Assembly: GCA_027490055.1 (NCBI GenBank) | Contig: JAIXYV010000029.1 | Coordinates: forward strand, 1 to 47,829 | Origin: Bacteroidota bacterium | Lineage (GTDB): Bacteria; Bacteroidota; Bacteroidia; NS11-12g; UBA955 | Length of the DNA: 47,829 bases | Reading direction: 5' to 3' | Shown: in pieces, positions 10,951 through 30,667 of the stretch | Numbering within the stretch: the first letter of the stretch is position 1 | Layout of the letters: every line of letters starts with the position of its first letter | Made by a program: the position numbers and the translations under genes | Notes under the pieces: model-generated | Seen by the model: only the letters and a program-made list of their open reading frames with translations | Told to the model about the DNA's origin: nothing | The model's database searches: none

Positions 10951-11483
10951 CAGACAGACGGGCAAAGATTGTTTTAATTTCTATTGCACTTTTTCTGAAA
11001 GTTTCTGCTAAATAATGAAATTTCATTAATAAAAATTGTAGAATTAGATTACAGTTTGCAGGCGTGCAAGGAGAATCATAAATTTCATTTATTAATTCTA
11101 TTAATTGTTTTTATAATTTAGAAAAACAGAACTTTAAAATGCTACAAACTACATTTTTTACTGCTCTGACATTCAATTAATATAGAGTTAAATACTAGCA
11201 ATTTATTCATACGAAAGAAAATTCTACTTTGAAAACAGGTATAGATTGTGAGACCTATTATTGTGAAAAAATCTTTCAAAAAAAATGCATCACTTAGTCA
11301 TCTAACTTGACGAAAAGAATTACTTTTTACACTTTTAAGAAGAAATTTACATTAAACCGCAAATAGGAAAGTGTTGTAATTCCATCAAATTCCTCCATTT
11401 ATTTCTACAACATTTTCCATATCTGGCTACAAGTTCAGATAAAACACAAGATCATTTTTGAAGCCATTAAAACGACGTAAAAA
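10951..11483. other. Non-coding AT-rich gap with a 16-bp palindrome
   Basis: No gene is visible in this stretch between the response regulator and the divergent fucosyltransferase. It holds a perfect 16-base palindrome, TAATGAAATTTCATTA, at 11013-11028. No clear TAnnTTTG box was found close to the fucosyltransferase start. Confidence 0.4.
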
Positions 11484-12344
11484 ATGATCATAGCGGATAT
11501 CTTTGGCGGACTTGGCAATCAGATGTTTCAGTATGCCACAGCCTACAGACTGGCCTTACACCTGAATACAGAACTGGTACTTAACAATAGTGAGCTTAAA
11601 TACGACAGTAAGAGAGCTTTTGGATTAAAGCCTTTCTGGATCAATAACCAGATTATTGAATTCAATATTCAGGAAGCTTCCGCTCTTAAAAAATATATTT
11701 ATGGCATACCTACTAAAACGATCAGGTACAAAGAGCAAGAAGAATTTGTGTACGACCCCAAGCTCATTTTGTTAAACGGCAACTGCCATATCAGCGGTTA
11801 CTGGCAAAACCCAGCTTACTTTGAGGACATCCGCGAAGTGATCTCTTCTGTATTTAGCCTGAGAAGCATGTCCCTTGATTTCGTGAAAATGAGGCTTGCG
11901 ATTCACGAAATGCCTTCATTGAGTCTGCATGTCAGGCGCGGCGACTTCATTGAAAATCCAAGTATTAAATCGATTCACAATGTTTGCGACATCCACTATT
12001 ACACTAATGCCATTGATACATTCAGACAATTATTTGGCTCCGACCAGCATAGCCTGTTCGTCTTTTCAGATGATCCGTACTGGTGTCGTCAGCATTTCGC
12101 TCACTACAAGAATGTCCACTTCGTCAAATCCCTCACTGATGCTGAAGAATTGATCCTAATGTCTGAATGCCAACACAACATTACCGCCAATAGCACCTTT
12201 AGCTGGTGGGGTGCCTGGCTCAATAAAAATCCGGATAAAATTGTCATTACCCCAGAAACCTGGTTAAAGAACAGTGACTTGAAGTACCATAATTTATTGC
12301 CGGACGAATGGGTGAAGTTGGGGGTCCACTTTGAAACACAATAA
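11484..12344 (+). CDS. Alpha-1,2-fucosyltransferase, GT11
   Basis: A 286-residue glycosyltransferase expected to move fucose from GDP-fucose to the 2-OH of galactose in surface glycans. The family signatures are clear: N-terminal GGLGNQMFQYA (residues 8-18), the GDP-fucose-binding HVRRGDF (149-155), and C-terminal NSTFSWWGAWLN. Length is normal. It is transcribed alone after a long non-coding gap, without other polysaccharide genes nearby, so its acceptor cannot be inferred from context. Confidence 0.92.
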   Translation: MIIADIFGGLGNQMFQYATAYRLALHLNTELVLNNSELKYDSKRAFGLKPFWINNQIIEFNIQEASALKKYIYGIPTKTIRYKEQEEFVYDPKLILLNGNCHISGYWQNPAYFEDIREVISSVFSLRSMSLDFVKMRLAIHEMPSLSLHVRRGDFIENPSIKSIHNVCDIHYYTNAIDTFRQLFGSDQHSLFVFSDDPYWCRQHFAHYKNVHFVKSLTDAEELILMSECQHNITANSTFSWWGAWLNKNPDKIVITPETWLKNSDLKYHNLLPDEWVKLGVHFETQ

Positions 12345-12512
12345 AACAACCAATTGCAAATTGGCTTTAATTTAAGAATTAGTCTTCGTTAAGAACGAAA
12401 CAAACAAAAATTTAAATAGGATAATTTATTAATATTCAAATTGCAATTATATTATGTAATACTAACCTTTACATAATTTCTTTTCGGATTTAATACCTTC
12501 TTTTTGTAGAAA

Positions 12513-14824: not shown

Positions 14825-15023
14825 TAACAACTTATATCGTGATACTCTGAATACTTTGATTGACAGTACGGAATTATCAAGGCTTTAAAAAATGATTTCA
14901 TTTAGAGTAACTTTAAAAATCAACTATTTATTTACTTTTAAATCATAAGAATTTGTTTGTTGCTGAGTTGACTTAATCAAGATACTCCGCAATTTTTCAC
15001 TACGATTATGCGTTCATGATAGT

Positions 15024-16316
15024 ATGAAAACGCATTTGTCTCATTCACTCTGGAGACTTTTACTTTTACTTTCGCTATTTAGTATCTCCCATTTTACATA
15101 CGCCTGTAGTGGCTATAAAATTACCAAAGGTGACAAAACCATTCTGGGTAGCAACGAAGACGCCTGGCGAACTACCCCACATATTTGGTTTGAGAACAAG
15201 ACAACACAAACAAAATACGGGGCCGCATTTACTGGTTCACGTTTCGACGGCGACAATGGCTATGCGCCGCAATCGGGCATGAACGAAGCTGGACTTGCTT
15301 TCGAACGCCTGGTAGCTTTCCATCCAAAACAAACTGCTAAACCAAACACCAAAACCATTACCAATCCCACAAAATACCTGAAAGACATTATACACCAGTG
15401 TCAAACAGTTGAAGAGGTGCGCGACTATATCAGCCAATATGATTATAGTTATTTTATTGAAGATGTATTTATCTATGTCGATCGCACTGGGAAATACCTT
15501 ATTGTTGAGCCTTACCAGCTCAGCATCGGCAACAACCCTTCGTATGTCATTTCTAACTTCTGCCCTTCTATTACATCCGACCATAAAGCCCAAAAACTGG
15601 AGCGCTATAAAAAAGGAAAAAATTTCCTTAACCATCAACTAGACACAACAGCAGAATTCTGCAAAGCTCTTTCTGACAGCATGCATGTCTGTCGTAAGAA
15701 GATTGGTGATGGCACTTTACTAAGCAGTATATGGGATCTGAAGAACAACCTAGTAAGTCTCTATTTTTACCATAACTATGATACCTGCGTACAATTTAAT
15801 CTGAACAAAGAACTAAGCAAAGGCGATCATCGTATTGCTATTGAAACTTTGTTTCCAAAGAATGCTGAATTCGAAAAATTAGGCACTTATAAAATTCCAA
15901 AAAACAATATGCCCATGGGACTATTCGTCGTCGGCTCGGCCATCTTTATGTTGTTCAGTTCGCTTTACTTTCTCGTACGTTTCATCAAAAACACATCAGT
16001 ATACCGATACCCGCAACTGGGACTATCCATTTTGGGCTTAATGTTGGTATATTACATGTATGTACTACTTGGCAGCATCAATATCTATTATTTTCCAGCA
16101 CCATTTAATGATCCGGGAAGCCTGCTTGTTAGTGCAAGCTCTTATCTTCCTTTTGTTCTCTTAATGGCAATTATACCTTTAATCGTCTTGCTTTTCAAAA
16201 TCATTAAACACAAAAGCTGGAATACCTTTGCTGTTTTTGCATTCAGCACCTATGTGTTGATCGACCTCGTAATGCTGGGACTGTTTGGGTATTGGGAGTT
16301 TTTCAATGTATTTTAA
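15024..16316 (+). CDS. Secreted Ntn hydrolase (C45/choloylglycine-like) with four C-terminal membrane helices
   Basis: A 430-residue protein. A signal peptide ends at TYA-C, so removal would expose Cys28 as an N-terminal nucleophile, the mode of activation of Ntn amidohydrolases. CSGYKITKGDKTILGSNEDAW and the following GYAPQSGMNEAGLAFERL match the pattern of acyl-transferase/penicillin-acylase relatives (C-x-x-x, GxNxD, GMNExGL). Residues ~300-430 carry four hydrophobic segments (GLFVVGSAIFMLFSSLYFLV, LGLSILGLMLVYYMYVLLG, YLPFVLLMAIIPLIVLLF, FAVFAFSTYVLIDLVMLGLF), which should anchor a periplasmic hydrolase in the inner membrane. The lipobox is poor, so Cys28 is unlikely to be lipidated. Substrate unknown. 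Confidence 0.75.
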   Translation: MKTHLSHSLWRLLLLLSLFSISHFTYACSGYKITKGDKTILGSNEDAWRTTPHIWFENKTTQTKYGAAFTGSRFDGDNGYAPQSGMNEAGLAFERLVAFHPKQTAKPNTKTITNPTKYLKDIIHQCQTVEEVRDYISQYDYSYFIEDVFIYVDRTGKYLIVEPYQLSIGNNPSYVISNFCPSITSDHKAQKLERYKKGKNFLNHQLDTTAEFCKALSDSMHVCRKKIGDGTLLSSIWDLKNNLVSLYFYHNYDTCVQFNLNKELSKGDHRIAIETLFPKNAEFEKLGTYKIPKNNMPMGLFVVGSAIFMLFSSLYFLVRFIKNTSVYRYPQLGLSILGLMLVYYMYVLLGSINIYYFPAPFNDPGSLLVSASSYLPFVLLMAIIPLIVLLFKIIKHKSWNTFAVFAFSTYVLIDLVMLGLFGYWEFFNVF

Positions 16317-16369
16317 GGCTTGAAAGGAAGCGGGTATTTTAAGTCTTGATATACTTAATCCAAATCTAA

Positions 16370-16963
16370 TCAAGCCTTAGATCTTCTCTTCCACTCCAAT
16401 AAATATAATACCGCTAATGATTGCTGATCTTTCCATAAAGAGGCAATCTCCAGCATCTGCGCTTTTAATTTGGAATTAGGATTGAGCTGATACAACGAAA
16501 CCATGACTTGCTTCAGATGAAAATCGTCGTAAGGAAAAACATTAGGCCTGTTAAGTGTATATAACAATACCATATCTATGGTCCATTTCCCTATACCTTT
16601 TATTCCAGACAATTCTTTTCTGATATCTTCATCTGAGAGCGTTTCGAAATCGGGATGCGGTCCACGCCAATAATCGATAAATGCCATCATAGTCTCTAAT
16701 TTACCTGAAGACAATTTAAGAAAAGGAAGGGCGTGCTCTTCCAATAAATAGACATTATCCAGACTTAAATGACGAATACCAGCCCTTTCCAATGCCTTGG
16801 CAAAAATGCGCTTACTGCTGCGGTAATGTATTTGCTGTTCAATGATGCAGCTCATCAAATCGTGAAAAACATCATGCGTTGACTCGATTACAGGCGGTTC
16901 GAGCCGAACTATAATATTTGCCAGAACCGGGTCATTCTGCAAAACGAGGGTATTATAAGCCAT
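16370..16963 (-). CDS. AlkA-like DNA-3-methyladenine glycosylase (HhH-GPD)
   Basis: A 197-residue base-excision repair enzyme. It has the helix-hairpin-helix LSGIKGIGKWTIDM (residues 118-131) followed by the catalytic Asp in NVFPYDDFHLKQ (D146/D147), the HhH-GPD layout of AlkA without the N-terminal AlkA domain. IIEQQIHYRSSKRIF is the usual first conserved helix. I chose ATG 16963; a TTG at 16996 extends the frame by 11 residues that add nothing to the fold. It probably removes alkylated purines. Confidence 0.88.
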   Translation of the reverse strand: MAYNTLVLQNDPVLANIIVRLEPPVIESTHDVFHDLMSCIIEQQIHYRSSKRIFAKALERAGIRHLSLDNVYLLEEHALPFLKLSSGKLETMMAFIDYWRGPHPDFETLSDEDIRKELSGIKGIGKWTIDMVLLYTLNRPNVFPYDDFHLKQVMVSLYQLNPNSKLKAQMLEIASLWKDQQSLAVLYLLEWKRRSKA

Positions 16964-17388
16964 AGTAAACTTTAAGTGTTCTAACTGCTCTAACAAACGA
17001 AAGATAAAAATGATTTAAGAAAGAGATTATAGAAAAAAGGGAGTACTGCGTGATCCCTGAGGGGGGAGGCTTGAAGCGAAAATCGCTTTACAAACGCCAC
17101 CGACAACACCTGAAACGGTCGTAAATAATTTAGCAAGTATATGATGCTGTTGAAGTCTTGTATCGATTAGGACACAAACTTCCGAAATGAATAATTAGGT
17201 AAAAGGCGAAAGAGGATGTGTAAATTTCTAAAGAGGTGTATGTAAAATTATGTGGGTAAATTATTATTTTTGACATCAATATTTTTAGAATTCATCTGTA
17301 ATTGCAAAAAAGAATAAAACGAAAAAAAGTTTCGCATATCACTGCATTATTGTATGACTAAACGAAGGTTTGTTTCGTGTATATAAAA
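16964..17388. other. Non-coding stretch at the left edge of the accessory island
   Basis: No gene is visible. It contains the first copy of a 34-base repeat (17039-17072), a short hairpin right after it (AAGCGA-AAA-TCGCTT, 17074-17088), and two small inverted repeats near 17320-17380 (CGAAA...TTTCG; ACGAA...TTCGT) just before the cassette boundary. Confidence 0.4.
17039..17072 (+). repeat. 34-bp dispersed repeat, left copy
   Basis: Begins GGGAGTACTGCGTGATCCCT and continues GAGGGGGGAGGCTT. It is identical to the right copy at 19579-19611 except for one extra G in the G run, in the same orientation. The two copies flank the AraC/SDR cassette. Confidence 0.75.
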
Positions 17389-17436
17389 GTTAGCGGTCAT
17401 TGTAGCTGACGACACTGCAACTAACAAAAAGACAAA

Positions 17437-18306
17437 ATGCAAGAAACAAAAGGAATACTTGACGACATAAAACAACACGACAAACTGACTATCAAAATTA
17501 GTTCTAATGCTAATAGTTTTTTGCCCGCAGACGTTTTAAAAAAATTACTTAAACCTCATAGGACAGCGTATTACTTTTTTGTATTTGTGGACAACGGTTC
17601 GTCAACTCATAAAGTGGACTTGGAAACTTTATCAATTTCAAGCGGACAATTGCTTTATATTTTACCAAATCAAATTCATACACCACAGGCGAAAAAAGAC
17701 GACCTTGAATATTTCAAATTGAGTTTTGACCACAATTGTTTGGCTTTACTACCTCGACAGTTTCCATTTTTAATAAATCCGCTAAATACTCAAACTATCA
17801 CGTTTGACAATGTTGCAAAACAAAGAGTAAATAAACTTTTTGAAATTTTAAATCAATTGCTGCAATCAGACAACAACCATAAAGACACAGAAATAATATT
17901 AGCCCATTTGAATTCACTCTTAACAGAATTTAATAACGCCTATTTTAGAAATATTGGGAAATACAATATTTTAAATCCCAAGCTATCAAAATACATTGAA
18001 TTTAAAACAGCTATTGAAACTCATTTGACAGAGCAACATTCTATAAACACCATTGCCGACAATCTTTCTATATCTACAAACAATCTTTATAACATTGTAA
18101 AAGAATTTTCAGGTGTTTCGCCAAAGGAATTTATTACCAATCGTTTGATGTTGGAAGCACAAAGAAAACTGCATTATTCAAAACCATCTATTAAAGAATT
18201 AGCTTACGACCTTGGTTTTAATGACCCTGATTATTTCTCACGGCTTTTCAAAAAAAGCACAGGGAAAAGCGTAAGTAAATATTCAGCAGACATTCACGAT
18301 TTATAA
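17437..18306 (+). CDS. AraC family transcriptional regulator
   Basis: A 289-residue regulator. Residues ~1-170 look like a cupin-type sensing domain (VDLETLSISSGQLLYILPNQIHTP is the typical AraC_binding strand pattern). The C-terminal ~100 residues are the double helix-turn-helix: HSINTIADNLSISTNNLYNIVKEFSGVSPKEFI and PSIKELAYDLGFNDPDYFSRLFKKSTGKS. It is the first gene of the presumed cassette and is followed 74 bases later by the dehydrogenase, so it likely controls that gene. The DNA is AT-rich compared with flanking housekeeping genes, which agrees with horizontal acquisition. Confidence 0.92.
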   Translation: MQETKGILDDIKQHDKLTIKISSNANSFLPADVLKKLLKPHRTAYYFFVFVDNGSSTHKVDLETLSISSGQLLYILPNQIHTPQAKKDDLEYFKLSFDHNCLALLPRQFPFLINPLNTQTITFDNVAKQRVNKLFEILNQLLQSDNNHKDTEIILAHLNSLLTEFNNAYFRNIGKYNILNPKLSKYIEFKTAIETHLTEQHSINTIADNLSISTNNLYNIVKEFSGVSPKEFITNRLMLEAQRKLHYSKPSIKELAYDLGFNDPDYFSRLFKKSTGKSVSKYSADIHDL

Positions 18307-18380
18307 AGTAATTAAAGTGATTAGTCCTGCTGTAACAAATATATCAAACCGACTTTTGCAGCTTAAAAAAAAAAAAAAAA

Positions 18381-19103
18381 ATGAAATCAGCATTTGTAAC
18401 AGGAGCAAACAAAGGAATCGGTTTTGAGACCGCTAAGCAATTAACAGAACTTGGGTATTTCGTTTACATTGGTAGCAGAGACAAAGCCAAAGGGATTGAA
18501 GCAATTGAAAAATTAAAAGCATTGGGTTTCTCAAACGTGGACTGTATAGAATTAGATGTAACAGACATTAATTCTATCAAATCAGCAAGACAAGAATTGG
18601 AAGTTAAAACTCAACACTTGGACATTTTAATAAACAATGCCGGTATTCGTGGCGAAGTTCCTCAACCTGCCTCAAAAGTACCAATTGAAAGATTACGACT
18701 TGTATTTGAAACCAATTTTTTTGGAGCGGTTCAAACGACACAAGTGTTTATGGATTTGCTTAAAAAAGCAGACCAACCGAGAATTGTAAATGTAACAAGC
18801 GACCTGGCTTCGTTGACAAATCACAGCGACCCAACTTGGAAATTTTATCCATTTAAGTCATCGGCATACAGTCCTTCAAAGACAGCCTTGAACGCATATA
18901 CAGTTATGTTGGCATTTGAATTAAAAGACACAAGTTTTAAAGTAAATTGTGTTAATCCAGGACACACTGCAACTGACTTTAACAATTACAAAGGCGAAAA
19001 ACCAATTGAACAAGGTGCAAGTGTAATAGTGAAATATGCAACTCTTGACAAAGACGGTGCAACTGGAAAGTTTTTCAGTGAAGAAGGAGAAACAGCTTGG
19101 TAA
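18381..19103 (+). CDS. Short-chain dehydrogenase/reductase
   Basis: A 240-residue NAD(P)-dependent oxidoreductase: cofactor motif TGANKGIGFE (residues 7-16), NNAG in the fourth strand region, and the catalytic YxxxK as SAYSPSKTALN, with an upstream Ser in NVTSDLAS. The NKGIGFE/GSRDKAKG start resembles carbonyl-reductase-like SDRs. The ATG directly follows a run of 16 A residues (18365-18380), so the spacing before the start may vary by slippage. The gene shares the cassette with an AraC regulator, suggesting an inducible detoxifying reductase; the substrate is unknown. Confidence 0.9.
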   Translation: MKSAFVTGANKGIGFETAKQLTELGYFVYIGSRDKAKGIEAIEKLKALGFSNVDCIELDVTDINSIKSARQELEVKTQHLDILINNAGIRGEVPQPASKVPIERLRLVFETNFFGAVQTTQVFMDLLKKADQPRIVNVTSDLASLTNHSDPTWKFYPFKSSAYSPSKTALNAYTVMLAFELKDTSFKVNCVNPGHTATDFNNYKGEKPIEQGASVIVKYATLDKDGATGKFFSEEGETAW

Positions 19104-19139
19104 CAAAGGACAACATAACGACAGAAGAAAAACAACGAA

Positions 19140-19272
19140 CCGCTAACACGGGTTTGGCAAAAGTGGCGGTTCAGTGCTCCGCAGACACATTTGTGAGTAA
19201 TCAAAGTTTGGTTCTCCGCATCAACATTTGTGAAAAAAATCGCCACCTTCGCCAAGCCCGGGAACGTTAAAA
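19140..19272 (+). repeat. attC-like recombination site at the cassette 3' end
   Basis: Starts with CCGCTAAC (19140-19147) and ends with GTTAAAA (19266-19272). Inner arms 19149-19168 and 19241-19260 pair 17 of 20 bases (CGGGTTTGGC... against ...GCCAAGCCCG). Spacers between outer and inner boxes are unequal (1 versus 5 bases), giving extrahelical bases like those that set strand choice in real attC sites. The central part holds a direct repeat, CTCCGCAnnnACATTTGTGA, at 19177-19196 and 19214-19233. Confidence 0.6.
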
Positions 19273-19578
19273 AAATCACGGCTCCACAAACTCATTAACT
19301 ATAACTTTCACATGCGTTGGTGTCAGTTATCTAAGACCTGGCTAATAACCATAGCTATTAAGTAAATCAAAAACATTTTCACTTAATTTGATCCATCTGC
19401 GTAATTGAGCACTGGCACGTTTCTTTGATTTATTCGGTTAATAGTGCTGTGTGTTTGTGCTGTTTTTGTATCTAAGCATTTTACTTACTAATTCTATCTA
19501 AAGTATTTTCCTTTACCTTCCCAACTCCCGAATTAGCATCAATGAACATTGAATATTTGATTTTTATAGCATTGTGTT
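19273..19578. other. Non-coding stretch right of the cassette
   Basis: No gene is supported: all frames break within ~25 codons. The bases TCTAAGACCTGG at 19330-19341 equal one half of the REP palindrome found at 35 kb, possibly a decayed copy. Confidence 0.35.
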
Positions 19579-19611
19579 GGGAGTACTGCGTGATCCCTGA
19601 GGGGGAGGCTT
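19579..19611 (+). repeat. 33-bp dispersed repeat, right copy
   Basis: Same orientation and same sequence as 17039-17072 apart from one G fewer in the G run. It lies 310 bases after the cassette end. The role is unknown. Confidence 0.75.
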
Positions 19612-19625
19612 AAGTTAAATTTAGC

Positions 19626-19653
19626 ACCAATTTGTAGAACAAATTGGTTTTTT
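19626..19653 (+). terminator. Rho-independent terminator
   Basis: Perfect 10-bp stem ACCAATTTGT / ACAAATTGGT with loop AGA, followed by a run of six T. It reads on the plus strand and would stop transcription leaving the cassette before it reaches tRNA-Ser. Confidence 0.6.
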
Positions 19654-19714
19654 ATGCCTTTTGCAAAATTTGCTCAAGCGCAGAGCCGCTTGGCAAATTT
19701 TTTAAAGGCATAAA
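19651..19714. repeat. Long imperfect inverted repeat
   Basis: Left arm 19651-19680 (TTTATGCCTTTTGCAAAATT then TGCTCAAGCG) pairs with 19687-19714 with a one-base bulge and a short internal mismatch, around loop CAGAGC. It lies between two terminator-like hairpins; it is far longer than a terminator needs. Confidence 0.6.
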
Positions 19715-19743
19715 AAAACCATAAGCTTTCGCTTATGGTTTTT
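19714..19743 (-). terminator. Terminator of tRNA-Ser (works on both strands)
   Basis: Stem AAAAACCATAAGC / GCTTATGGTTTTT. On the minus strand the loop is GAAA closed by C-G (GNRA tetraloop) and the stem is followed by a T run, 14 bases after the tRNA 3' end. Confidence 0.7.
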
Positions 19744-19756
19744 AACTTTTAACTTG

Positions 19757-19841
19757 CGGAGAAAGAGGGATTCGAACCCCCGTTAGCTTTCACTAAAACA
19801 GTTTTCAAGACTGCCGCATTCAACCGCTCTGCCATTTCTCC
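19757..19841 (-). tRNA. tRNA-Ser(UGA)
   Basis: The minus strand gives an 85-base cloverleaf: acceptor GGAGAAA pairing with TTTCTCC, discriminator G, D-arm region GGCAGAGCGGTTGAATGC, anticodon stem/loop CAGTCTTGAAAACTG with anticodon TGA, a long variable arm as in class II tRNAs, and the T arm GGGGGTTCGAATCCC. CCA is not encoded. The accessory island lies directly on its 3' side, a common position for insertions. Confidence 0.95.
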
Positions 19842-19853
19842 CTAAAAGGAGGG

Positions 19854-19885
19854 CAAAAATATATAAAAATATTTAATTGTGCAAT
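19854..19885 (-). promoter_or_regulatory. Promoter of tRNA-Ser
   Basis: On the minus strand ATTG (19885-19882), 20 bases, then TATTTTTG (19861-19854), matching the Bacteroidota -33/-7 pair closely; the tRNA begins 12 bases later. Confidence 0.6.
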
Positions 19886-19901
19886 AGAAAATATTAGGAA
19901 T

Positions 19902-20873
19902 TTAACTCCTGAACCTGTTCTCCAGTTTTCTTTGCTCCTGAGCTATTTTTACAACAGTCTTAATACTCTTGTTTAACTCGAAGCCAACCAAGACACATAA
20001 GGTATTGAAATAAATCAGCAACATAATCACGATAATAGCACCAATACTGCCATACAGCTTGTTATAACTATCAAACCCGTCTACATAATTAGAAAATAAG
20101 TAAGTAGCAATAATGGACAAAATGGTGGCGACTATAGCGCCTGGCGAGAAAAACTTCCACTTCTCTTTGGCACTGTGACCGAAATAATACAAGCCGCTCA
20201 TGATAAAAAACACCAAAGAGGTCAGGCACACAAACTGCAAGCCTTTAATGAAGACTAACATGACGGTCTTATTAATAATATCCTTGTTTACAATAAAACT
20301 GTACAACAAATTACCCGACACCAATACGCCCAAAGCCAAAAATATTAAGGCAGTTACACCTAAAGTCAGCAACATCGACTTCCCTCTTTTCTGAAAAAAG
20401 TTGCGTTTCTTTTTCTCGCCTTCCAGAAAATTACTATCAAACGCTACCATCATCGAAAAAACCCCGTTGCTGGCAAAATAGAGCGCCGAAAAGAAACCAA
20501 ACGACAATAGACCACTCCTTTGGTTCTGTACGATGTCTCTGACCGTCCGGCGAATAATTTTATAGGCATCATCAGGTAAAAAGAAATCCATCTGGACCAA
20601 AATGGTCTTCTGCAAACTATTGCCTGGCAAATAAGCGATTAAAGTAAAAAGGAAAATGAGCGAGGGAAAAATCGCCAGGAAGAAATTCCACGACAAGGAC
20701 CCAGCATACAAGTTAAACTTGGGCGAGATAATCCCTTTAAAGAAAAACTGAAAAACCGAATACAAGGAAGCGCCTTCGAAACCCGGCGGATAAATTCCAT
20801 CCAGAAAATTGATTACCCGTTTCACCGGCGGCAATCGCATAAACTTATCTCCTATTGTTGGCTTCTTTGTCAA
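19902..20873 (-). CDS. YihY/BrkB family inner-membrane protein
   Basis: A 323-residue protein with about six membrane segments and the family features FKGIISPKFNLYAGSLSWNFFLAIFPSLIFLFTL near the N-terminus and FFSPGAIVATILSIIATYLFSNYV, NKLYGSIGAIIVIMLLIYFN toward the C-terminus. The biochemical role of YihY proteins is not settled. The frame starts with TTG overlapping the methyltransferase stop (TTGA); an internal ATG at 20840 (MRLPPVKR) is the alternative. It is third in a DUF349-methyltransferase-YihY operon. Confidence 0.88.
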   Translation of the reverse strand: MTKKPTIGDKFMRLPPVKRVINFLDGIYPPGFEGASLYSVFQFFFKGIISPKFNLYAGSLSWNFFLAIFPSLIFLFTLIAYLPGNSLQKTILVQMDFFLPDDAYKIIRRTVRDIVQNQRSGLLSFGFFSALYFASNGVFSMMVAFDSNFLEGEKKKRNFFQKRGKSMLLTLGVTALIFLALGVLVSGNLLYSFIVNKDIINKTVMLVFIKGLQFVCLTSLVFFIMSGLYYFGHSAKEKWKFFSPGAIVATILSIIATYLFSNYVDGFDSYNKLYGSIGAIIVIMLLIYFNTLCVLVGFELNKSIKTVVKIAQEQRKLENRFRS

Positions 20874-21652
20874 AATCTTAATACAAAATGTTCTTTTTCC
20901 TGTTCCTTCCTAAAAAACACAATTCCCATGGCATACAAGTCGATGCTCACCGTAACAGCAGGATAGTTCTTGATTTTAGACCATGCCAGGTACATCTCAT
21001 CACTCCAGCGAATATCGTCAAAAACAAAGACCGTTCCGGTATGTGCTTTCTGCAAACATAACTCGAAATACTTTAATGTGGCCTCCATGCTGTGATTACC
21101 ATCAAAAAAAACATAATCAACTCGTGGCAAAAATTCTATTAAAGCAGGCAACTGATCATCGAAATTCCCTTCTATTAACTGGATGTTTTTAAATTCCAGT
21201 TTCTCAAAATTAAACGCCGCTACCTTAGCGCTATCCGGATTCCCTTCAAGGGTATATAAAAACCCGTCTCTAAGTGCGCTGGCCTGATACATGGCACTAA
21301 TTCCAAGAGATGTTCCAATCTCTACGGCAATCTGGGGTTGAAAATACTCGCAAATCCGCTCCAGCAATTCTGCATAGCGGGCAGATTTAGCACTTCTTCT
21401 GGCAACCCTGCTGAGAGGAACAGTTTCTTCCTCTTTTGCTGCTGCACCCAGTGGCAAAATTTTAATAAGCGATTTACTTTTCATCATTCGGGAACGAACC
21501 AGTTCGAACTCGTGATACATTGGCTTGTTCTTTCTAACATTTAGCACCTTGCATACGAAATCGTATACAAAGGGCGAGTGCACAGAATGCTTTGTACCCG
21601 ATGTAAAGAAATAAAATAGATAATTGATGGCAAACTGAATACTGTTCAGCAT
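20870..21652 (-). CDS. SAM-dependent class I methyltransferase (O-methyltransferase-like)
   Basis: A 260-residue enzyme with SAM-binding motif I AVEIGTSLGISAMY (about residue 100), acidic LEGNPDSA after strand 2, and VDYVFFDGNHSMEATLKYFE, the D-G-x-H motif of the Methyltransf_24/O-methyltransferase group. The N-terminal ~40 residues (INYLFYFFTSGTKHSVHSPFVYDFV) form a hydrophobic leader common in Bacteroidota homologues. It follows the DUF349 gene by 18 bases and overlaps YihY by four. Substrate unknown. Confidence 0.82.
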   Translation of the reverse strand: MLNSIQFAINYLFYFFTSGTKHSVHSPFVYDFVCKVLNVRKNKPMYHEFELVRSRMMKSKSLIKILPLGAAAKEEETVPLSRVARRSAKSARYAELLERICEYFQPQIAVEIGTSLGISAMYQASALRDGFLYTLEGNPDSAKVAAFNFEKLEFKNIQLIEGNFDDQLPALIEFLPRVDYVFFDGNHSMEATLKYFELCLQKAHTGTVFVFDDIRWSDEMYLAWSKIKNYPAVTVSIDLYAMGIVFFRKEQEKEHFVLRF

Positions 21653-21670
21653 ATCGAAGTCAATTACAGA

Positions 21671-23548
21671 TTACTTACCTGAATTGTTTCTGTATGATCT
21701 GAGCACTTTCAGTTCTTCCTGAAGCTTTGCAATCTGGTGATTAGCCGTTTCAATTTTTTGCTCAATCTGCTTTCTTAATGCATCCGCATTTTTTGATTTT
21801 GCGAAAAACTCAATATTGTTTTTAAGTGTTGCGGCATCGTCTCTTAGCATTCTTAACTTATCGTTGATGATGCGTTCTTCGTGACGCATTTTATCATCAC
21901 CATTAGGTGAAGTAGACAGCATTTCGTAATGCTCTTTCACTCTAAGAGATTTATTTTCATCTGCAGATTGCTTAAACTTCTTATACACCGCATCCACAGA
22001 TTTACTGTAGCGGTTTTGAAGATCAGCTTTCACTTTAATAGGCACGAAACCAATGCTCATCCATTCCTGCTGCAGGTTTTTCAACTGAGCAAACACTTCA
22101 GAACTGTTCTCATTATTGATAAGTTCATTGACTGTTGCAATAATTTTCTCTTTCGCTACCAGGTTATCTTTTTCACCAGCGTTTTTATCTTTGTAAAACT
22201 CTTCTTTGCGTTTGAAGAATTTATCGCAGGCCGATCTGAAGCGACTCCAGATCTGTTCGTTTTTATTTTCCGGAACAGGGCCGATAGATTTCCATTTTTC
22301 CTGCAAGGATATCAAGTGTTTTGAAGTCGCATCATACTGCGTACTTTCAGACAACTTTTCAGCCTCTTCGCATAGGGCAGTTTTAAGTTCAAGATTTTTA
22401 TCTTTACCGCTGTTGAGTTGTTCAAAGAAGGCTTTCTTGTTGTGATTAAAGACATTCTGTGCCTCTCTGAAACGTTTCCAAATCTGGTCGTTGACACTTT
22501 CTGGCACCGGACCGATGGTTTTCCATTCGGCAAATATGGCGACTATCTCCTCCCCTTTTTCTTTCCAGAGTTTAGGCGAAGTGATAGGCAATTGATTGAT
22601 GTGTTCTACTTTCTCGCAAAGTACTTTTTTCAGTTCCAGATTCTCGTTGCGTTTGGCTTTTATGTTTTCAAGCTGACCGCGTTTTTCGCCAAGAACTTTA
22701 TCAGAAGCTTCTTTAAAACGCTTCCAGATATCTTCAGCGACATCTTTACCTGGAACAGGACCAGCATTTTTAAATTCCTCGTGGTATTTGTTTAATAAGA
22801 TATGGGCTTTCTTGATAGATTTCTCTTCGTGAAGCAGCGTAACTTTCTTGATTAAATCGATTTTAGCTTCAAGATTTTTTTGTCTGTCTTTTTCTTTTAG
22901 CTCGTTATTGATCGCGTGATTATCATAGAACTTATCCAGGTGGTAGCGGTAGTTTTCCCACAGCTCCTGCATGTGCTCTCTAGGCACTGTGCGAATTTGC
23001 TTCCATTGTTTCTGAAGTTCCAGAACTTCTTTAAACACAGACTCAGTTTCATCCTGAGCAGACAGCGCTTTCAGCTTTTCAATAATCTGTTTTTTAGCTT
23101 GCAGATTTTTTTGTTTTTCCTCTTCTGCCAGACGTTTTTCTTCCGCTCTTTTCTCCAGAAAGGTGGTATATACTTTATAAAACTTTTCTTTCAGTTCGTC
23201 GTAAGCAGGTTTAAACTCGCGTACATCATTGCCCGCATCTGCCCATTCTTTTACCTGAATAACACGTTCTGCTTTAACCGCGTCATCAAACAAAACACGA
23301 ATCTTTTTAAAGATATCGTGAGCTTCTTTAATATTTGGATGATCAATTAATTGTTCTGCTTTGGTAAGAAAATCTGCTTTGGTAAACGATGAGTAATCTG
23401 TCTGATCACGTTTTTCTTCTTCCACATCAGCAAATTCATCATGTTCTTCGGTATCACCTTTTTTCTCAAGGTTGACAATGTTCTTTTGCAATGCTTCATC
23501 ATTGGCATCTACGTGCGTGTCATTCAAATGCTTGTTTGTTTCGCTCAT
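21671..23548 (-). CDS. DUF349 repeat protein
   Basis: A 625-residue, highly charged helical protein made of DUF349 repeats. Four good copies show the signature W-K-x-I/A-G-P-V-P followed by W-x-R/Y-F/Y-R (QIRTVPREHMQELWENYR; AGPVPGKDVAEDIWKRFK; IGPVPESVNDQIWKRFR; IGPVPENKNEQIWSRFR), a fifth is divergent (IGFVPIKVKADLQNRYS) and one more degenerate copy lies near residue 100. The C-terminus is a coiled coil. DUF349 proteins are cytoplasmic; the exact role is uncertain. First gene of its operon. Confidence 0.88.
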   Translation of the reverse strand: MSETNKHLNDTHVDANDEALQKNIVNLEKKGDTEEHDEFADVEEEKRDQTDYSSFTKADFLTKAEQLIDHPNIKEAHDIFKKIRVLFDDAVKAERVIQVKEWADAGNDVREFKPAYDELKEKFYKVYTTFLEKRAEEKRLAEEEKQKNLQAKKQIIEKLKALSAQDETESVFKEVLELQKQWKQIRTVPREHMQELWENYRYHLDKFYDNHAINNELKEKDRQKNLEAKIDLIKKVTLLHEEKSIKKAHILLNKYHEEFKNAGPVPGKDVAEDIWKRFKEASDKVLGEKRGQLENIKAKRNENLELKKVLCEKVEHINQLPITSPKLWKEKGEEIVAIFAEWKTIGPVPESVNDQIWKRFREAQNVFNHNKKAFFEQLNSGKDKNLELKTALCEEAEKLSESTQYDATSKHLISLQEKWKSIGPVPENKNEQIWSRFRSACDKFFKRKEEFYKDKNAGEKDNLVAKEKIIATVNELINNENSSEVFAQLKNLQQEWMSIGFVPIKVKADLQNRYSKSVDAVYKKFKQSADENKSLRVKEHYEMLSTSPNGDDKMRHEERIINDKLRMLRDDAATLKNNIEFFAKSKNADALRKQIEQKIETANHQIAKLQEELKVLRSYRNNSGK

Positions 23549-23734
23549 TAACTATGGATTATAAAAAAATTGAGGGTATTTTGAAAAGTGCGTGTGCTCT
23601 TAGTTCTGTTCTGTTTTAAGACATCATTAGATATGTGAGATAAGTTGTAGCCATGAGGCTTTGATCAGGTTGATTTCACTAGTCGACACAAAGATAAGTT
23701 GAAAGTTTTCAAAATGACAAATCATTTTTGTAAA

Positions 23735-24859
23735 TCATTTGTCATTTTGAAGTAAAAAATTTGCAAAGCCAAGTTTATTAATATGACTGCTATGCTTGTT
23801 ATTGGTTAGAATGACGTAACATATCTGTTTATCAAACCTGTTCCAGAAGGATGTCCAGAACCCGCGCCACCAGCCATTGTGATAGGTCCACTGCCCGGCA
23901 GGTGTATTCATAAGCCTGAAACCCAGTCCGTAACTTCCTCCAAAAACATTATATTTATAAGAAGGCTCAGACATTTGCTTCAATAAATCGCGACTGATTA
24001 ATCGACCCTCTGAAAGTGCCAGATGAAACCCAAAAAGATCTTCCACATTGCTATACAGACTTTTATCACCCAAAACACCATCCAGATAATAGGTGCCGTA
24101 ATACTCATATCTATCATATCGCCCCACCAGAACCTTTGATTTCACCCTGGGCAACTGATACCCTTTGAAAAAAGAATTGCGCATGCCAGCAGGCTTAAAA
24201 ATGCGCTCTTCAACAAACTTAGGGAAACTCATACCACTTACTTTTTCTATCATCACCGCCAGAAAAGCATAATTGGTATTGCAATAACTAAAGCTAACAT
24301 CCGGATCGAGGTATGGCACTGGTTTATTTTTAACCATAAACTGATAAAAATCCTTGTTGTTCATGTACTTTGAAGTATCCTTCCAGAACGTATCTGTATA
24401 ATAAATGTAATTAGCCAATCCGCTTCGGTGAGAGAGCAATTGTCTCACGCTTACTTTGGGATAGGGAAAATCAGGCAAATAGTTCACAACCAAATCATCC
24501 AGTTTAACTTTCCCGTCTTGCACCAGCAACATAACAGCTGTTGCAGTGACCGTTTTAGACACTGACGCTAACTGAAAAACATCGTCCACCTGCATCTCGC
24601 TGGACTTGTTGAGATCGCGATAACCGAAGGCTTTTTTGTAGAGATACCCTTTTTTATAAACCAGCACAGTGCCGCAAAATCCGGGTTCAAAGAACTGCTC
24701 CAGACTGTCTGTAAAGCGCTTGCTGAATGGCTTGAATGATTGAGATGAAACAAAGAAACTATCCTTGGAAACATTGGCATGTTTCTTTGCACGACCGCTG
24801 TTAGTGCAGGAGACAGAATACAACAGAATACATACAACAAGAATATACCTCAAATTCAC
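23735..24859 (-). CDS. Serine hydrolase lipoprotein, class C beta-lactamase/DD-peptidase-like
   Basis: A 374-residue lipoprotein (signal MNLRYILVVCILLYSVSC, Cys18). It holds the serine beta-lactamase-fold residues: S99-V-S-K102 (QLASVSKTVTA), Y192-C-N194 (FSYCNTNYAF), and HNGWWRGF as the H-x-G equivalent of KTG. Likely a periplasmic peptidase, esterase or amidase rather than a resistance enzyme, as most members of this Pfam family are. The start is GTG, placed four bases after a -7 box; no ATG fits ahead of the signal. Confidence 0.85.
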   Translation of the reverse strand: MNLRYILVVCILLYSVSCTNSGRAKKHANVSKDSFFVSSQSFKPFSKRFTDSLEQFFEPGFCGTVLVYKKGYLYKKAFGYRDLNKSSEMQVDDVFQLASVSKTVTATAVMLLVQDGKVKLDDLVVNYLPDFPYPKVSVRQLLSHRSGLANYIYYTDTFWKDTSKYMNNKDFYQFMVKNKPVPYLDPDVSFSYCNTNYAFLAVMIEKVSGMSFPKFVEERIFKPAGMRNSFFKGYQLPRVKSKVLVGRYDRYEYYGTYYLDGVLGDKSLYSNVEDLFGFHLALSEGRLISRDLLKQMSEPSYKYNVFGGSYGLGFRLMNTPAGQWTYHNGWWRGFWTSFWNRFDKQICYVILTNNKHSSHINKLGFANFLLQNDK

Positions 24860-24863
24860 GCGT

Positions 24864-24871
24864 CAAAAATA
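24864..24871 (-). promoter_or_regulatory. -7 promoter box for the serine hydrolase
   Basis: TATTTTTG on the minus strand ends four bases before the GTG start, so the transcript would be leaderless or nearly so. Confidence 0.5.
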
Positions 24872-24920
24872 ATTTCGGGAAATTACTAAAGTACATCGAA
24901 ATATCAAGTGTACAAACAAA

Positions 24921-24951
24921 AAAAATCCCGGCAAATTTTACCGGGATTTTT
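24921..24951 (-). terminator. Terminator after the secreted lipoprotein gene
   Basis: Perfect 11-bp stem AAAAATCCCGG / CCGGGATTTTT around a nine-base loop, with A and T runs on both sides; it starts 18 bases after the stop at 24969 on the minus strand. Confidence 0.75.
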
Positions 24952-24968
24952 CAATGATTAATTATTAA

Positions 24969-25844
24969 TTATCTAACTGTGTAGAAGTATTCTTTATTAT
25001 TGATAGTGGCTTTCGCTACTAAATCGCAAGCCTGATTATTATATGGATCGTAATCGATCTTAATGGTTTTACCTGAACTAACATTGGTAAGGGTGATTTT
25101 ACCTTTAACAAAGGTTCTTGCGCAACCCATTTCAACTTTCTTCAACAAAGGCACGTCAATATTAACAGTGAAGTTTTCGTTGTTTCTGTTGATACCGCTG
25201 GCACTACCTTCAACCTGAAACTGGTCGCCGAGCAAACCCGGACCGTTATCCAGCAATTTGGTTATTTTTCTGGTACTCTGCCAAGCTACTGTTCCTTTAT
25301 CATTAGTAGCTTTTGCATTGATAACATCAATTTTCAATTCAGTTTCAGACAATCTGGTTAATTTAATAGTACCAGTTAATTTAGTCAGGTTAACGCCATC
25401 GCTTCCACCGTAGTAATTATCAGAATCGCTGGTTGAAATAGTTACTTCAGCGCTGTCCATGAAATATCTTTTGCTGATACTTAAGTGCACCACCCCTGAG
25501 CGGTAACGACCGTCTTTACAGAGAATTCCTTTAGGAATACTGGTCTTCAAAGGACCGAAATCGATGGTACATTCAACGCCATCACCGTCGGTAAATAAAC
25601 TGTCTGTAAAGCTAACAACAGCACCACTTGGTAAGATGGTATTTCCAGATCTTGTTCTTGCGTCATTACTTGAAAAGTCGTCGGCAACATCAAAAAGAGA
25701 AGTAAATTCGTTTTCTGCAGTGGAATTGTCTTCAGCAGAAACAATGGTTTCAACTGTAGCGTTAGTGTCTTTTTTGCATCCCACCATCATTAATCCTGAC
25801 GCTGAAGCCAGTAATAAGGCAAAAGTTAATTGTAGTTTTTTCAT
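24969..25844 (-). CDS. Secreted lipoprotein, unknown function
   Basis: A 291-residue lipoprotein (MKKLQLTFALLLASASGLMMVGC-KKD, lipobox MVGC). The mature part is Asp/Ser/Thr-rich at first (TVETIVSAEDNSTAENEF) and then mostly beta strands, with four cysteines spaced as two likely disulfides (VECTID, GILCKDG, MGCART, NQACDL). I do not recognise the domain. It is monocistronic, with a strong terminator directly downstream. Confidence 0.7.
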   Translation of the reverse strand: MKKLQLTFALLLASASGLMMVGCKKDTNATVETIVSAEDNSTAENEFTSLFDVADDFSSNDARTRSGNTILPSGAVVSFTDSLFTDGDGVECTIDFGPLKTSIPKGILCKDGRYRSGVVHLSISKRYFMDSAEVTISTSDSDNYYGGSDGVNLTKLTGTIKLTRLSETELKIDVINAKATNDKGTVAWQSTRKITKLLDNGPGLLGDQFQVEGSASGINRNNENFTVNIDVPLLKKVEMGCARTFVKGKITLTNVSSGKTIKIDYDPYNNQACDLVAKATINNKEYFYTVR

Positions 25845-25886
25845 TTTTAAATTAAGGTATTTGGTTGTGTATATAGACTACACAAT

Positions 25887-27089
25887 TTACAAAGGTTGCA
25901 TAGCCTTCGAAATATTTTCAATAATTATGCCACAAACCTTACGTATTTCAGGTTCTTCAATAATTAAAGGGGGGGCAAGACGAATGCGATTAGCCGCAAA
26001 AAGGAACCAATCTATCAGCAAACCGTCTCTAACACAGCCATCTATCACTTTTCTGCAAAACACCTCATCGTCGAATACCAGCGATAACATGAGGCCAGTT
26101 CCAGTGATACTTTTTATTAAAGGATGAACCAGGAGCGATCTAAATAAGGCCTCTTTTGAGGCTATTGTATTTAAAATACCTGTTTCAGTGAGTATTTTAA
26201 GGGCTTCCAGTGAGGCTGCACAAGAAACAGGGTGACCACCAAATGTGGTTATATGACCAAGTACTGGTCGGTCTGTAAGCACCGACATTAGTTCTTTTGA
26301 TGCGATAAAAGCGCCCAAAGGCATGCCGCCGCCGAAGCCTTTGGCAAGGACCAATATATCTGGAACTACCTCCAGGACTTGAAAAGCAAACAAAGAGCCG
26401 GTGCGACCGTAGCCTGTCTGGATTTCATCAAACACGAGTAAGGTCCCAGTTTCATCACAGCGCTTTCTGACAGCTTTCAGGTAATTAATATCACATGGCT
26501 CGTAGCCCTTTTCGCCCATAACTGGTTCCAGAAAAACGGCAGCTGTTTCAGTGGTGATAAGCGTATTAATTTCTGAGATATCATTTTGATGCATAAAGCT
26601 AACACCTGGGATAAGCGGTCTGAAGGCATTACTAAAATAAGCATCGCTCATTAAACTAAGAGCACCCTGCGTACTGCCGTGGTAGGCAAGATGCTGAGAA
26701 ACAAAACGGTATCTGCCTGTTGCTCTTTTGGCAAGTTTCATCGCTCCTTCTATAGCTTCGCTCCCACTATTGACAAAATAAACGGATTGAAGTTTCTCAG
26801 GAAGCTGCTGGGAGAGCAAATGGGCCAACTGCACCTGAGTCGACTGTATCATTTCACCATATACCATTAAGTGCATATGCTGATCGACTTGTTTCTTGAC
26901 CGCTTCGGTGATACGCGGGTTTGAATGTCCAAGATTACTAACCGAAATTCCAGAGATACAATCTATATAGGACTTATCATCACTGTAAAGAAACACACCG
27001 CTGGCATGCGTGATCTGCAGGGCAAGCGGACTATCAGAAGTCTGTGCCACATCATTAAAAAACCAATCACGCAAAGTATGCTTATACAT
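25887..27089 (-). CDS. Class III aminotransferase, acetylornithine/ornithine-type
   Basis: A 400-residue PLP enzyme. Conserved elements: NSGSEAIEGAMKLAKRAT (phosphate loop region), FDEIQTGYGRTGSLFAFQ with the ring Asp, and the PLP lysine in VLAKGFGGGMPLGAF (about residue 250). Length and motifs suit ArgD/RocD-like aminotransferases, but no arginine genes are near, so the substrate is open. I chose ATG 27089, four bases after a -7 box; the frame opens at TTG 27119, which lies upstream of that box. Confidence 0.85.
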   Translation of the reverse strand: MYKHTLRDWFFNDVAQTSDSPLALQITHASGVFLYSDDKSYIDCISGISVSNLGHSNPRITEAVKKQVDQHMHLMVYGEMIQSTQVQLAHLLSQQLPEKLQSVYFVNSGSEAIEGAMKLAKRATGRYRFVSQHLAYHGSTQGALSLMSDAYFSNAFRPLIPGVSFMHQNDISEINTLITTETAAVFLEPVMGEKGYEPCDINYLKAVRKRCDETGTLLVFDEIQTGYGRTGSLFAFQVLEVVPDILVLAKGFGGGMPLGAFIASKELMSVLTDRPVLGHITTFGGHPVSCAASLEALKILTETGILNTIASKEALFRSLLVHPLIKSITGTGLMLSLVFDDEVFCRKVIDGCVRDGLLIDWFLFAANRIRLAPPLIIEEPEIRKVCGIIIENISKAMQPL

Positions 27090-27093
27090 ACGG

Positions 27094-27101
27094 CAAAGGT
27101 A
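27094..27101 (-). promoter_or_regulatory. -7 promoter box for the class III aminotransferase
   Basis: TACCTTTG on the minus strand ends four bases before ATG 27089. It directly abuts the T tract of the HU terminator. Confidence 0.55.
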
Positions 27102-27105
27102 TAAA

Positions 27106-27135
27106 AAAACCCCTTGCAATTACGCAAGGGGTTTT
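27106..27135 (-). terminator. Terminator of the HU gene
   Basis: Stem AAAACCCCTTGC / GCAAGGGGTTTT with a six-base loop and a run of T on the minus strand, 26 bases after the HU stop. Confidence 0.8.
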
Positions 27136-27161
27136 GAGAGTTAATAGTAATCTAAATTAGA

Positions 27162-27434
27162 TTATTTTACTTTGCTTGAAAGGTCAGCACCTGCTTTGAA
27201 TTTCACAACTTTTTTAGCTGCGATTTTGATTTCTTTGCCTGTACGTGGGTTACGACCGGTTCTTGCAGCTCTTTTAGTAACTGAGAAAGTACCGAAACCT
27301 ACAAGGATTAATTTGTCACCTTTTTTCAATGCACCTGTAGTAGCAGAGATAAAAGAGTTCAAAGCTGCTTGAGCTTGAGCTTTAGTAACTTTGGCATCGT
27401 TAGCCATTTTGCTGATTAGATCTGATTTGTTCAT
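27162..27434 (-). CDS. HU family DNA-binding protein
   Basis: A 90-residue nucleoid protein that bends DNA as a dimer. MNKSDLISKMANDAKVTKAQ begins the helical dimerisation part; GFGTFSVTKRAARTGRNPRTGKEI is the signature arm with the intercalating-proline RNP motif; the end KKVVKFKAGADLSSKV is typical. Full length for HU. A -7 box 51 bases upstream and a terminator downstream make it a single-gene unit. Confidence 0.95.
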   Translation of the reverse strand: MNKSDLISKMANDAKVTKAQAQAALNSFISATTGALKKGDKLILVGFGTFSVTKRAARTGRNPRTGKEIKIAAKKVVKFKAGADLSSKVK

Positions 27435-27484
27435 AATTTAAAATAATTAATAAATGTTAATGTTTTTTAATGAATTCTTGAGGT

Positions 27485-27492
27485 CAAAAGTA
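27485..27492 (-). promoter_or_regulatory. -7 promoter box for HU
   Basis: TACTTTTG on the minus strand (TAnnTTTG), 50 bases before the HU ATG, leaving a ~45-base leader, longer than for most genes here. Confidence 0.5.
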
Positions 27493-27562
27493 AAGCAAGG
27501 ATTAGTAAAATCAAGGGCTAAGCCACAATTTTTCCTGAAAAATATTAACATACAATTCACAT

Positions 27563-28099
27563 TTATCTCCGTTTATTTTTAAAATGTTTTATAATCTTCT
27601 GAATTACAACACTTAACGGAACAGAGTGCTGTTGGTTATGGTCGATGATAACATCAGCTTTTGCATATGTTTTACGCCTGTTTTCGTATAAAACACTAAG
27701 TTTTTCCATGATTTCCGCTTCGCTGAGACCCAAAAACAATGGTCGTCGCGTGCTATTCTGGACTATTCTTCTCTTAATTATATGCAAATCGGTATTCAAC
27801 CATATAACAATACCATTAGATTTCATCAATTCTATATTGTTATAATGAAAAGGTGTACCGCCTCCACAAGACACTACACAGTTATTATAGCAAATAGTCT
27901 TTTTAAGCATTTCGTGTTCCTGCTCTCTGAAATAAGGTTCGCCTTTCTCTGTTATAATATGTCTTACAGAAGCCAGTTCTTTTTTCTCAAGCATTTCATC
28001 CAGATCAAAGAATTGCATTTTCAAACTTTGAGAGAGCAATCTTCCAAAATGTGTTTTGCCCGTACCAGGCATTCCAACGATATAGACCCTGAGCATCAT
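27563..28099 (-). CDS. aroK: Shikimate kinase
   Basis: A 178-residue kinase that phosphorylates shikimate at O3 in aromatic amino-acid synthesis. Walker A is GMPGTGKTHFGR (residues 9-20), the shikimate-binding loop is VVSCGGGTPF, the lid contains RRPLF, and DLDEMLEK carries the magnesium/substrate Asp. Length is normal. Its first ATG overlaps the stop of the upstream ABC permease by four bases. aroA lies elsewhere in the window at 37-38 kb. Confidence 0.92.
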   Translation of the reverse strand: MMLRVYIVGMPGTGKTHFGRLLSQSLKMQFFDLDEMLEKKELASVRHIITEKGEPYFREQEHEMLKKTICYNNCVVSCGGGTPFHYNNIELMKSNGIVIWLNTDLHIIKRRIVQNSTRRPLFLGLSEAEIMEKLSVLYENRRKTYAKADVIIDHNQQHSVPLSVVIQKIIKHFKNKRR

Positions 28100-29136: not shown

Positions 29137-29137
29137 C

Positions 29138-30664: not shown

Positions 30665-30667
30665 GTT

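Follow-up and report, generated by a model that had tools for sequence, protein, structure and literature searches.

The stretch of DNA analysed here (47,829 nt, called the window throughout) is one whole contig (JAIXYV010000029.1, our C67) of the 3.02-Mb, 121-contig draft assembly GCA_027490055.1 of a Bacteroidota bacterium. It carries two genes, for an AraC-family regulator and a short-chain dehydrogenase/reductase (SDR), which are enclosed by complementary boxes, preceded by DNA resembling the attI site of integrons and followed by an imperfect palindrome resembling the attC site of integron cassettes. Comparison with related genomes makes it highly probable that this segment represents one remaining cassette, seated in the attI of an integron that has since decayed and belongs to an unusual type common among Bacteroidia. 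The features are as follows, all on the plus strand, with a slash marking the crossover in G/TT:

17289..17389, plus strand: attI-like site, orphaned, ending at the crossover G 17389; 81% identical to positions 3177-3279 (minus strand) of contig C12 in the related genome G001, its left limit being that of the alignment
17389..17397, plus strand: left box G/TTAGCGGT, with the first cassette bases after the crossover G; read in the sequence, and homology with genome G042 (locus L153) begins exactly at 17389
17390..19266, plus strand: cassette of 1877 bp, TT...G, placed by the G/TT rule and the complementary boxes, the rule having been checked on 46 and 64 neighbouring site pairs
17437..18306, plus strand: AraC-family regulator gene, 289 aa (Pfam HTH_18 2.6e-18, AraC_binding 7.4e-7)
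18381..19103, plus strand: SDR gene, 240 aa (Pfam adh_short 2.1e-41), with a 74% identical gene in a two-gene unit of G042
19139..19147, plus strand: right outer box R'' ACCGCTAAC, complementary to 17389-17397
19140..19273, plus strand: attC-like hairpin site (held-out covariance model 69.7 bits, E 3.6e-12), of which 19142-19250 shares 94% identity with an attC next to the integrase in G001
19149..19168, plus strand: inner arm L'', 17 of 20 positions paired with 19241-19260; the stem covaries in 45 other sites
19241..19260, plus strand: inner arm L', 17 of 20 positions paired with 19149-19168; the same covarying stem
19266..19268, plus strand: right crossover G/TT (R' core), read in the sequence

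The left box GTTAGCGGT (17389-17397) and the right box ACCGCTAAC (19139-19147) are complementary over 9 nt, one more than a first-pass annotation of this DNA had claimed, and the right box opens an imperfect palindrome of 134 nt with CG/TT at its end (19265-19268). The inner arms do pair at 17 of 20 positions when 19149-19168 is read against 19241-19260, and the integron-type cassette logic that had been proposed is borne out, with G/TT at both ends and a complete attC-like hairpin carried along. The spacers are unequal, as had been stated (1 nt left, 5 nt right), but the extrahelical bases expected from them are not there, the arms being mismatched and unbulged. At 1877 bp the cassette is long, yet inside the range of the site family described below (288-4109 bp).

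Taken alone, the 9-nt box match is modest evidence, because complementarity of at least 8 nt arises in about 2-3% of wrongly paired family sites (mean 1.14 of 46 for descriptor sites and 1.85 of 64 for model sites). It stands far above chance because a held-out covariance model matches this site alone in the window and because the left flank is attI-like. The model, R1, was built from 45 aligned sites at integrase loci with the window site left out; the training sites had a score of at least 11, a length of 125-140 and at most 80% mutual identity, and ungapped arms were required. Up to an E value of 10, its sole match in the window is 19140-19273. This site and the other family sites share the attC anatomy of integrons, namely an imperfect palindrome, outer and inner box pairs and G/TT. 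Folded as DNA, its bottom strand reaches -23.4 kcal/mol (z -2.85) and its top strand -20.8 (z -1.72), and the arm score is 15 with or without bulges allowed. An Rfam scan returned tRNA only, the exact site pattern had 0 matches among viral contigs, and distant blastn of the whole segment against plasmids found nothing.

From 17302 the window is 88% identical to positions 4330-4419 of contig C195 in the relative G005, and in G001 the matching attI stretch begins at most 3 nt from the stop codon of a tyrosine recombinase gene (3282-4325, minus strand). Since the left flank matches attI-like DNA following the G001 integrase stop and the attC is 94% alike, the window reads as an attI plus one cassette. 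No integrase remnant turned up when 13 integrases were compared by tblastn with 15501-19900 (best E 0.58), and as far as this interval reaches the earlier statement that no integrase is near is correct. An integrase elsewhere in the genome, for which the first-pass annotation had suggested looking, was found on contig C77. Nothing else in this genome matches the recombinase model at E<=1e-75. The C77 gene is split over two frames in the assembly, a frameshift that could be an assembly error. Because the window locus is without a recombinase and the only strong relative in the genome is frameshifted, the cassette probably cannot move without help in trans. A second attC of this genome (locus L007, G000:C47, minus strand 18720-17570) is followed by an apparent antitoxin/PIN-toxin pair, read by eye.

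The full system was found in relatives. Recombinase loci were taken from genome contigs, and the best 80 of 568 were kept as the basis of all 80-locus counts, with 250,432 nt scanned downstream and 536,480 nt upstream of the integrase. With a model-free descriptor, 53 downstream sites were detected on the strand of the integrase and 2 on the opposite strand, against 1 + 1 upstream and 0 in shuffled downstream DNA. R1 found 107 sites at the same loci, all 107 on the integrase strand, with 105 downstream and 2 upstream (both at L128); as 37 of the 107 are training sites, the R1 and descriptor counts are not independent, the boundary tests and the window match being independent of this overlap. 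A downstream R1 site is present at 36 of the 80 loci, and at 29 of the 39 that have at least 1.5 kb downstream. At genome scale, 32 of 59 genomes (own counted) have blastn relatives of the 133-nt site at E<=1e-3, many of them several copies and frequently at contig ends, and R1 sites at E<=0.01 occur in at least 49 of the 59, with 1 to 43 apiece; these R1 counts used Infernal's stricter filters and are lower bounds. At least five sites are present in 20 of the 30 genomes with a recombinase, compared with 3 of the 29 without.

Successive boundaries in these arrays are complementary over at least 8 nt in 26 of 46 descriptor pairs (shuffles: mean 1.1, maximum 5) and in 51 of 64 R1 pairs (shuffles: mean 1.8, maximum 6), and the own two outer boxes of one site match over at least 8 nt in just 4 of 90. 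An attI adjoins the integrase at 30 of 42 loci, recognised as a GTT at most 320 nt from the integrase end with at least 8 nt complementary to the first attC (shuffles: mean 1.3, maximum 7); 23 of these 30 GTTs lie 67-122 nt past the integrase end. TAnnTTTG, which we take to be the Bacteroidota -7 box, precedes the attI in 13 of 28 loci (1.7 expected from shuffles; for example L078 after 9041), and near the integrase 3' end it is a likely candidate for a Pc promoter that would read into the array. Among the 82 cassettes with a validated start, the median length is 806 bp (range 288-4109) and the longest open reading frame (ORF) lies on the attC strand in 73 and on the opposite strand in 2, with none in 7. 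The arrays run in the same direction and are mostly single-gene. Their 75 cassette proteins fall into 70 families, which agrees with the expectation of the first-pass annotation that many similar sites would be found in relatives beside unrelated genes.

The hairpin itself is conserved as a structure. Outer boxes and inner arms vary among copies, and both inner arms change together. RNAalifold on the 45 sites gave 14 pairs, all 14 with compensatory double changes, and left two opposed positions unpaired. At the inner position 42 of 45 sites have an A.C mismatch (AG in 2, AT in 1). At the outer position A.C occurs in 23 sites and other mismatches in 3, and the remaining 19 have a standard pair (GC 10, AT 6, CG 3). 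The near-invariant stem mismatch is thus A.C on the top strand and T.G on the bottom, and the bottom strand is the more stable in 71 of 82 sites, by a mean of -2.8 kcal/mol (sites of 120-150 nt, 25 of 107 being excluded by length). The T.G on the bottom against the A.C on the top, together with the better folding of the bottom strand, favours bottom-strand use and disfavours a role as RNA or terminator. Classical attC sites carry two one-sided extrahelical bases, according to a passage of PMC3053210, and the present family mostly, though not always, does without them. Selection by an ungapped rule leaves the training sites uninformative on bulges; no arm-improving bulge is present in the window site or in 16 of 16 blast-found sites. 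Where bulges do occur, they flank the retained A.C mismatch on either side of the stem (14 sites shown, L096, L082, L124, L133, L115 and others), and a single bulged base beside the mismatch is possibly linked to the classical extrahelical bases.

By Pfam, the family recombinase carries PF00589 and PF13495. The number of residues between KGxKDR and LRH is 59-66 in the family (44 proteins, median 61), 64-69 in Xer proteins (n=8) and 102 in IntI (14 of 14, IntI1 counted); the approximately 41-residue IntI insert with helix I2 is absent from the family recombinases. When compared by phmmer with VchIntIA (IntI4, 2a3v), chain positions 8-183 and 246-318 were aligned and 184-245 skipped. TIGR02249 matched the family in two pieces below its cut-off (6 of 6 members), and NF040815 (recomb_XerA_Arch, 'site-specific tyrosine recombinase/integron integrase') was passed by 4 of 6. 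The AlphaFold2 model of the recombinase L098, from Flavobacterium aciduliphilum (predicted local distance difference test, pLDDT, 87; predicted template modelling score, pTM, 0.61) has XerA 5hxy and IntI 2a3v as nearest folds. A tree of 66 proteins (44 family, 14 IntI and 8 Xer members, with archaeal XerA left out) placed IntI in one clade (100/100) and Xer in another (100/99), and the family falls on the IntI side. The family is split off by a single branch in 20% of bootstrap trees, and it may be either a clade of its own or the stock that gave rise to IntI. In many members the N-terminus is extended by roughly 70-110 residues, a domain with the modelled fold b-b-a-b-b-a (pLDDT 87). The motif of this domain is suggestive of HARP, a junction-binding domain present in SMARCAL1, and we treat the likeness as a lead only.

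The AraC and SDR pair also occurs in G042, which belongs to another family, with 74% homology from exactly 17389 to 19107, just past the SDR stop codon. A gene pair bounded at the same G/TT in another genome is the exchange that the first-pass annotation had sought. The attC of the G042 unit differs from that of the window (R1 E 8e-8), and the remainder of the 3.7-kb G042 locus fetched gave no blastn match to the window. The SDR gene was detected in 2 of 36 relatives at E<=1e-40, namely the own genome and G042.

Sequence comparison establishes the unit boundaries, the attI, the covarying hairpin, the linkage to the recombinase and the missing IntI insert. Intact copies have a tyrosine recombinase gene upstream, an attI just past its stop codon, and then a same-direction run of cassettes with an attC at the end of each. 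As DNA goes single-stranded, the bottom strand of attC would fold, and the hairpin stem would mimic a double core site. The recombinase would then cut attI and the folded attC, each between G and TT, inserting the cassette circle, after which the cassette's own box (TTAGCGGT...) would sit at the attI junction; excision would give the circle again, with a complete, fully complementary outer pair. The contact made by helix I2 might be replaced by the N-terminal domain or by the conserved mismatch. The first-pass annotation had guessed at an orphan cassette and at a recombinase system distinct from canonical IntI, apparently using folded single strands; both guesses are supported.

The family recombinase was detected at E<=1e-75 in 147 of 295 genomes sampled within the class Bacteroidia (attC being checked in part of the 147). 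Canonical IntI scored above cut-off in 1 of these 295, in 84 of 296 genomes sampled across the phylum, 83 of them outside the class, and in 0 of 97 relatives (TIGR02249 cut-off). The presence of IntI in the phylum, together with an attC anatomy, G/TT and attI all on the integron plan, could suggest that the cassette was placed by an ordinary IntI with helix I2, located elsewhere or since lost, the I2-less recombinases being bystanders; the sites in which a bulge raises the arm score by at least 2 (15 of 62 R1 matches outside the training set), and which are in this respect more classical, point the same way and count against an I2-less system. However, the rarity of IntI in the class and its absence among the relatives, against an I2-less family in half of the sample, led us to reject canonical IntI as the author of the cassette. 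The hairpin sites also stand directly behind I2-less genes, and R1 sites lie beside 0 of 7 canonical IntI loci (flanks of at most 1.5 kb), making this origin very unlikely. It is likewise unlikely that double-stranded core sites are recombined by a Xer-like enzyme, with the hairpin as a terminator or RNA element and no single-strand step. The enzyme does lack the I2 insert and has a Xer-like fold, and the hairpin sits at the 3' end of each gene, where a terminator would be, but the complementarity of the outer boxes links the start of a cassette to its end, which is what a folded circle site requires, and not the two sides of one site (51 of 64 against 4 of 90), the A.C mismatch seen in 42 of 45 sites harms the transcript strand whereas the bottom strand has T.G and folds better in 71 of 82, and arm sequences change with pairing kept. 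A dispersed non-coding repeat or transposon-end family without a recombinase of its own, its linkage to integrases being incidental, would agree with the many near-identical copies, often at contig ends. We regard this as exceedingly improbable, given that 105 of 107 sites lie to the same side of the integrase and all 107 share its strand, with complementary boxes for each cassette.

Besides the bulged sites, a number of observations weigh against a cassette left by an I2-less integron. Recombination itself, together with single-strand use and the choice of strand, is inferred from sequence. The predicted empty site in a sister strain failed to appear, the joined window flanks being found in none of 17 genomes of the genus, own included; in this search good matches were limited to the attI half (in G005 and G001), and G008 and G001 gave weak ones. 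The own genome holds only 2 R1 sites at E<=0.01 (in the window and on C47), which is a lower bound. At a lower threshold the descriptor is less clean, with 103 matches versus 21 in shuffles. There is no downstream R1 match at 44 of the 80 loci, where 41 of the 80 have less than 1.5 kb downstream, nor at 10 of the 39 with at least 1.5 kb, and at L045 a site lies upstream of its integrase on the opposite strand. Boundaries fall short of 8 nt in 20 of 46 descriptor pairs and 13 of 64 R1 pairs, some of which we would attribute to a missed intervening site. At least one site is still present in 20 of the 29 relatives without a recombinase at E<=1e-75, and G003 has a recombinase fragment and no site. 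The extra N-terminal domain is missing from some recombinases (L070, L045), and its likeness to HARP is not significant (Pfam 0.072 in 1 of 13; Foldseek top match 4o66 at E 0.3); VIA-align of the domain gave a best Z of 4.7 to another fold, with 4o66 absent among the 50 matches listed.

The system shares with canonical IntI integrons (class 1 and chromosomal; VchIntIA, 2a3v) an attI by the integrase, attC sites of the form R''-L''...L'-R', the G/TT crossover, same-direction and mostly one-gene cassettes of unrelated contents, and an outer box in common with the cassette start. It differs from them in a recombinase without the approximately 41-residue helix I2 insert and often with an extra N-terminal domain, in an integrase that reads toward the array, in attC stems that share a symmetric A.C mismatch and are mostly unbulged, and in being common in a class where IntI was found in a single sampled genome. 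In 'inverted' integrons, known from Treponema, the integrase reads in the cassette direction; integrase and cassettes are on one strand as in the present system, whereas the integrase is a canonical IntI. A cluster of attC sites lacking integron-integrases (CALIN) also has attC without an integrase nearby, but we take its rule to be two or more attC sites, and the window has one only, beside an attI-like site and belonging to an I2-less system. With XerC, XerD and XerA (5hxy being the best match) the recombinases share the catalytic fold and the KGxKDR-LRH length, but they fall on the IntI side of the 100/99 branch, away from the 8 Xer proteins, and are linked to cassette arrays. Since even intact copies belong to an I2-less system, an IntI-based tool would probably call them integrase-less. 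The strict definition of an integron requires the IntI domain and so excludes this system, though its cassette works like an integron cassette.

We lean by a narrow measure, scarcely past an even balance, towards the wider reading that a second great integron branch exists in Bacteroidia, whose recombinase uses folded single-stranded attC without helix I2. This branch may be the stem lineage that captured cassettes before I2 arose, or it may have solved the problem independently, with an N-terminal junction-binding (HARP-like) domain and the conserved stem mismatch in place of I2 and the extrahelical bases. If true, roughly half of Bacteroidia genomes, as well as plasmids, would carry such integrons, and tools that rely on the I2 domain to define an integron would overlook them. 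An I2-less recombinase heading cassette arrays would allow direct tests of how single-strand recombination arose and would give access to a large, hidden reservoir of mobile genes, including the plasmid-borne Chryseobacterium array described below. A passage of PMC7790495 holds that helix I2 turned a double-strand recombinase into the integron integrase, and surveys, in the parts consulted, pick IntI by the I2-bearing domain (PMC2426708, PMC9668308). Excerpts of one large survey give for Bacteroidetes first only In0 and then one complete integron, in Salinibacter, with others in Chlorobi and Ignavibacteriae (PMC9024848), and passages elsewhere list Bacteroidota among integron-bearing phyla without detail (PMC9668308, PMC8618304); 'inverted IntIs' are named in a passage of PMC8352920. 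Among titles and abstract openings of the open-access literature we found no report of I2-less integrons in Bacteroidota, a scope that does not settle priority.

The cassette of the window lies between two copies of a direct repeat:

17039..17065, plus strand: 27-nt direct repeat, left of the attI remnant; its 22-nt core has two copies only in the genome at up to 3 mismatches
19579..19605, plus strand: 27-nt direct repeat, right of the cassette and near tRNA-Ser; G006 and G007 carry similar copies at their homologous tRNA-Ser position

These repeats were considered as ends of a larger insertion. The G006 and G007 copies, at the corresponding tRNA-Ser position, suggest instead a local repeat linked to this tRNA.

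Some loci lie further afield. L111, on a contig titled Nitrospirae, has one validated 9-nt boundary and no R1 match, and L138 (Fusibacter sp. 3D3) has four weak R1 matches (E 0.001-0.003) of about 176 nt behind its recombinase; the membership of both is unsure. At L138, three of the weak matches are about 380 nt apart (11442-12378), perhaps as a tandem repeat. Acinetobacter plasmids (H2-H4) carry recombinases whose 53-57% identity to L098 is confined to the catalytic part of L098. A circular 66-kb Chryseobacterium plasmid (L160, NZ_CP041688.1) encodes a recombinase 57% identical to L098, followed by an attI and cassettes in its direction, with six R1 sites behind the recombinase, all on the same strand. 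A 172-nt unit of this plasmid (16150-16321) recurs near 18270, 20651 and 30805 between different cassettes; its ends are complementary over 12 nt by reading, and in two places it is annotated as hypothetical ORFs. In the same array (15001-31000), group II introns lie inside attC sites by reading, and IS110 is present.

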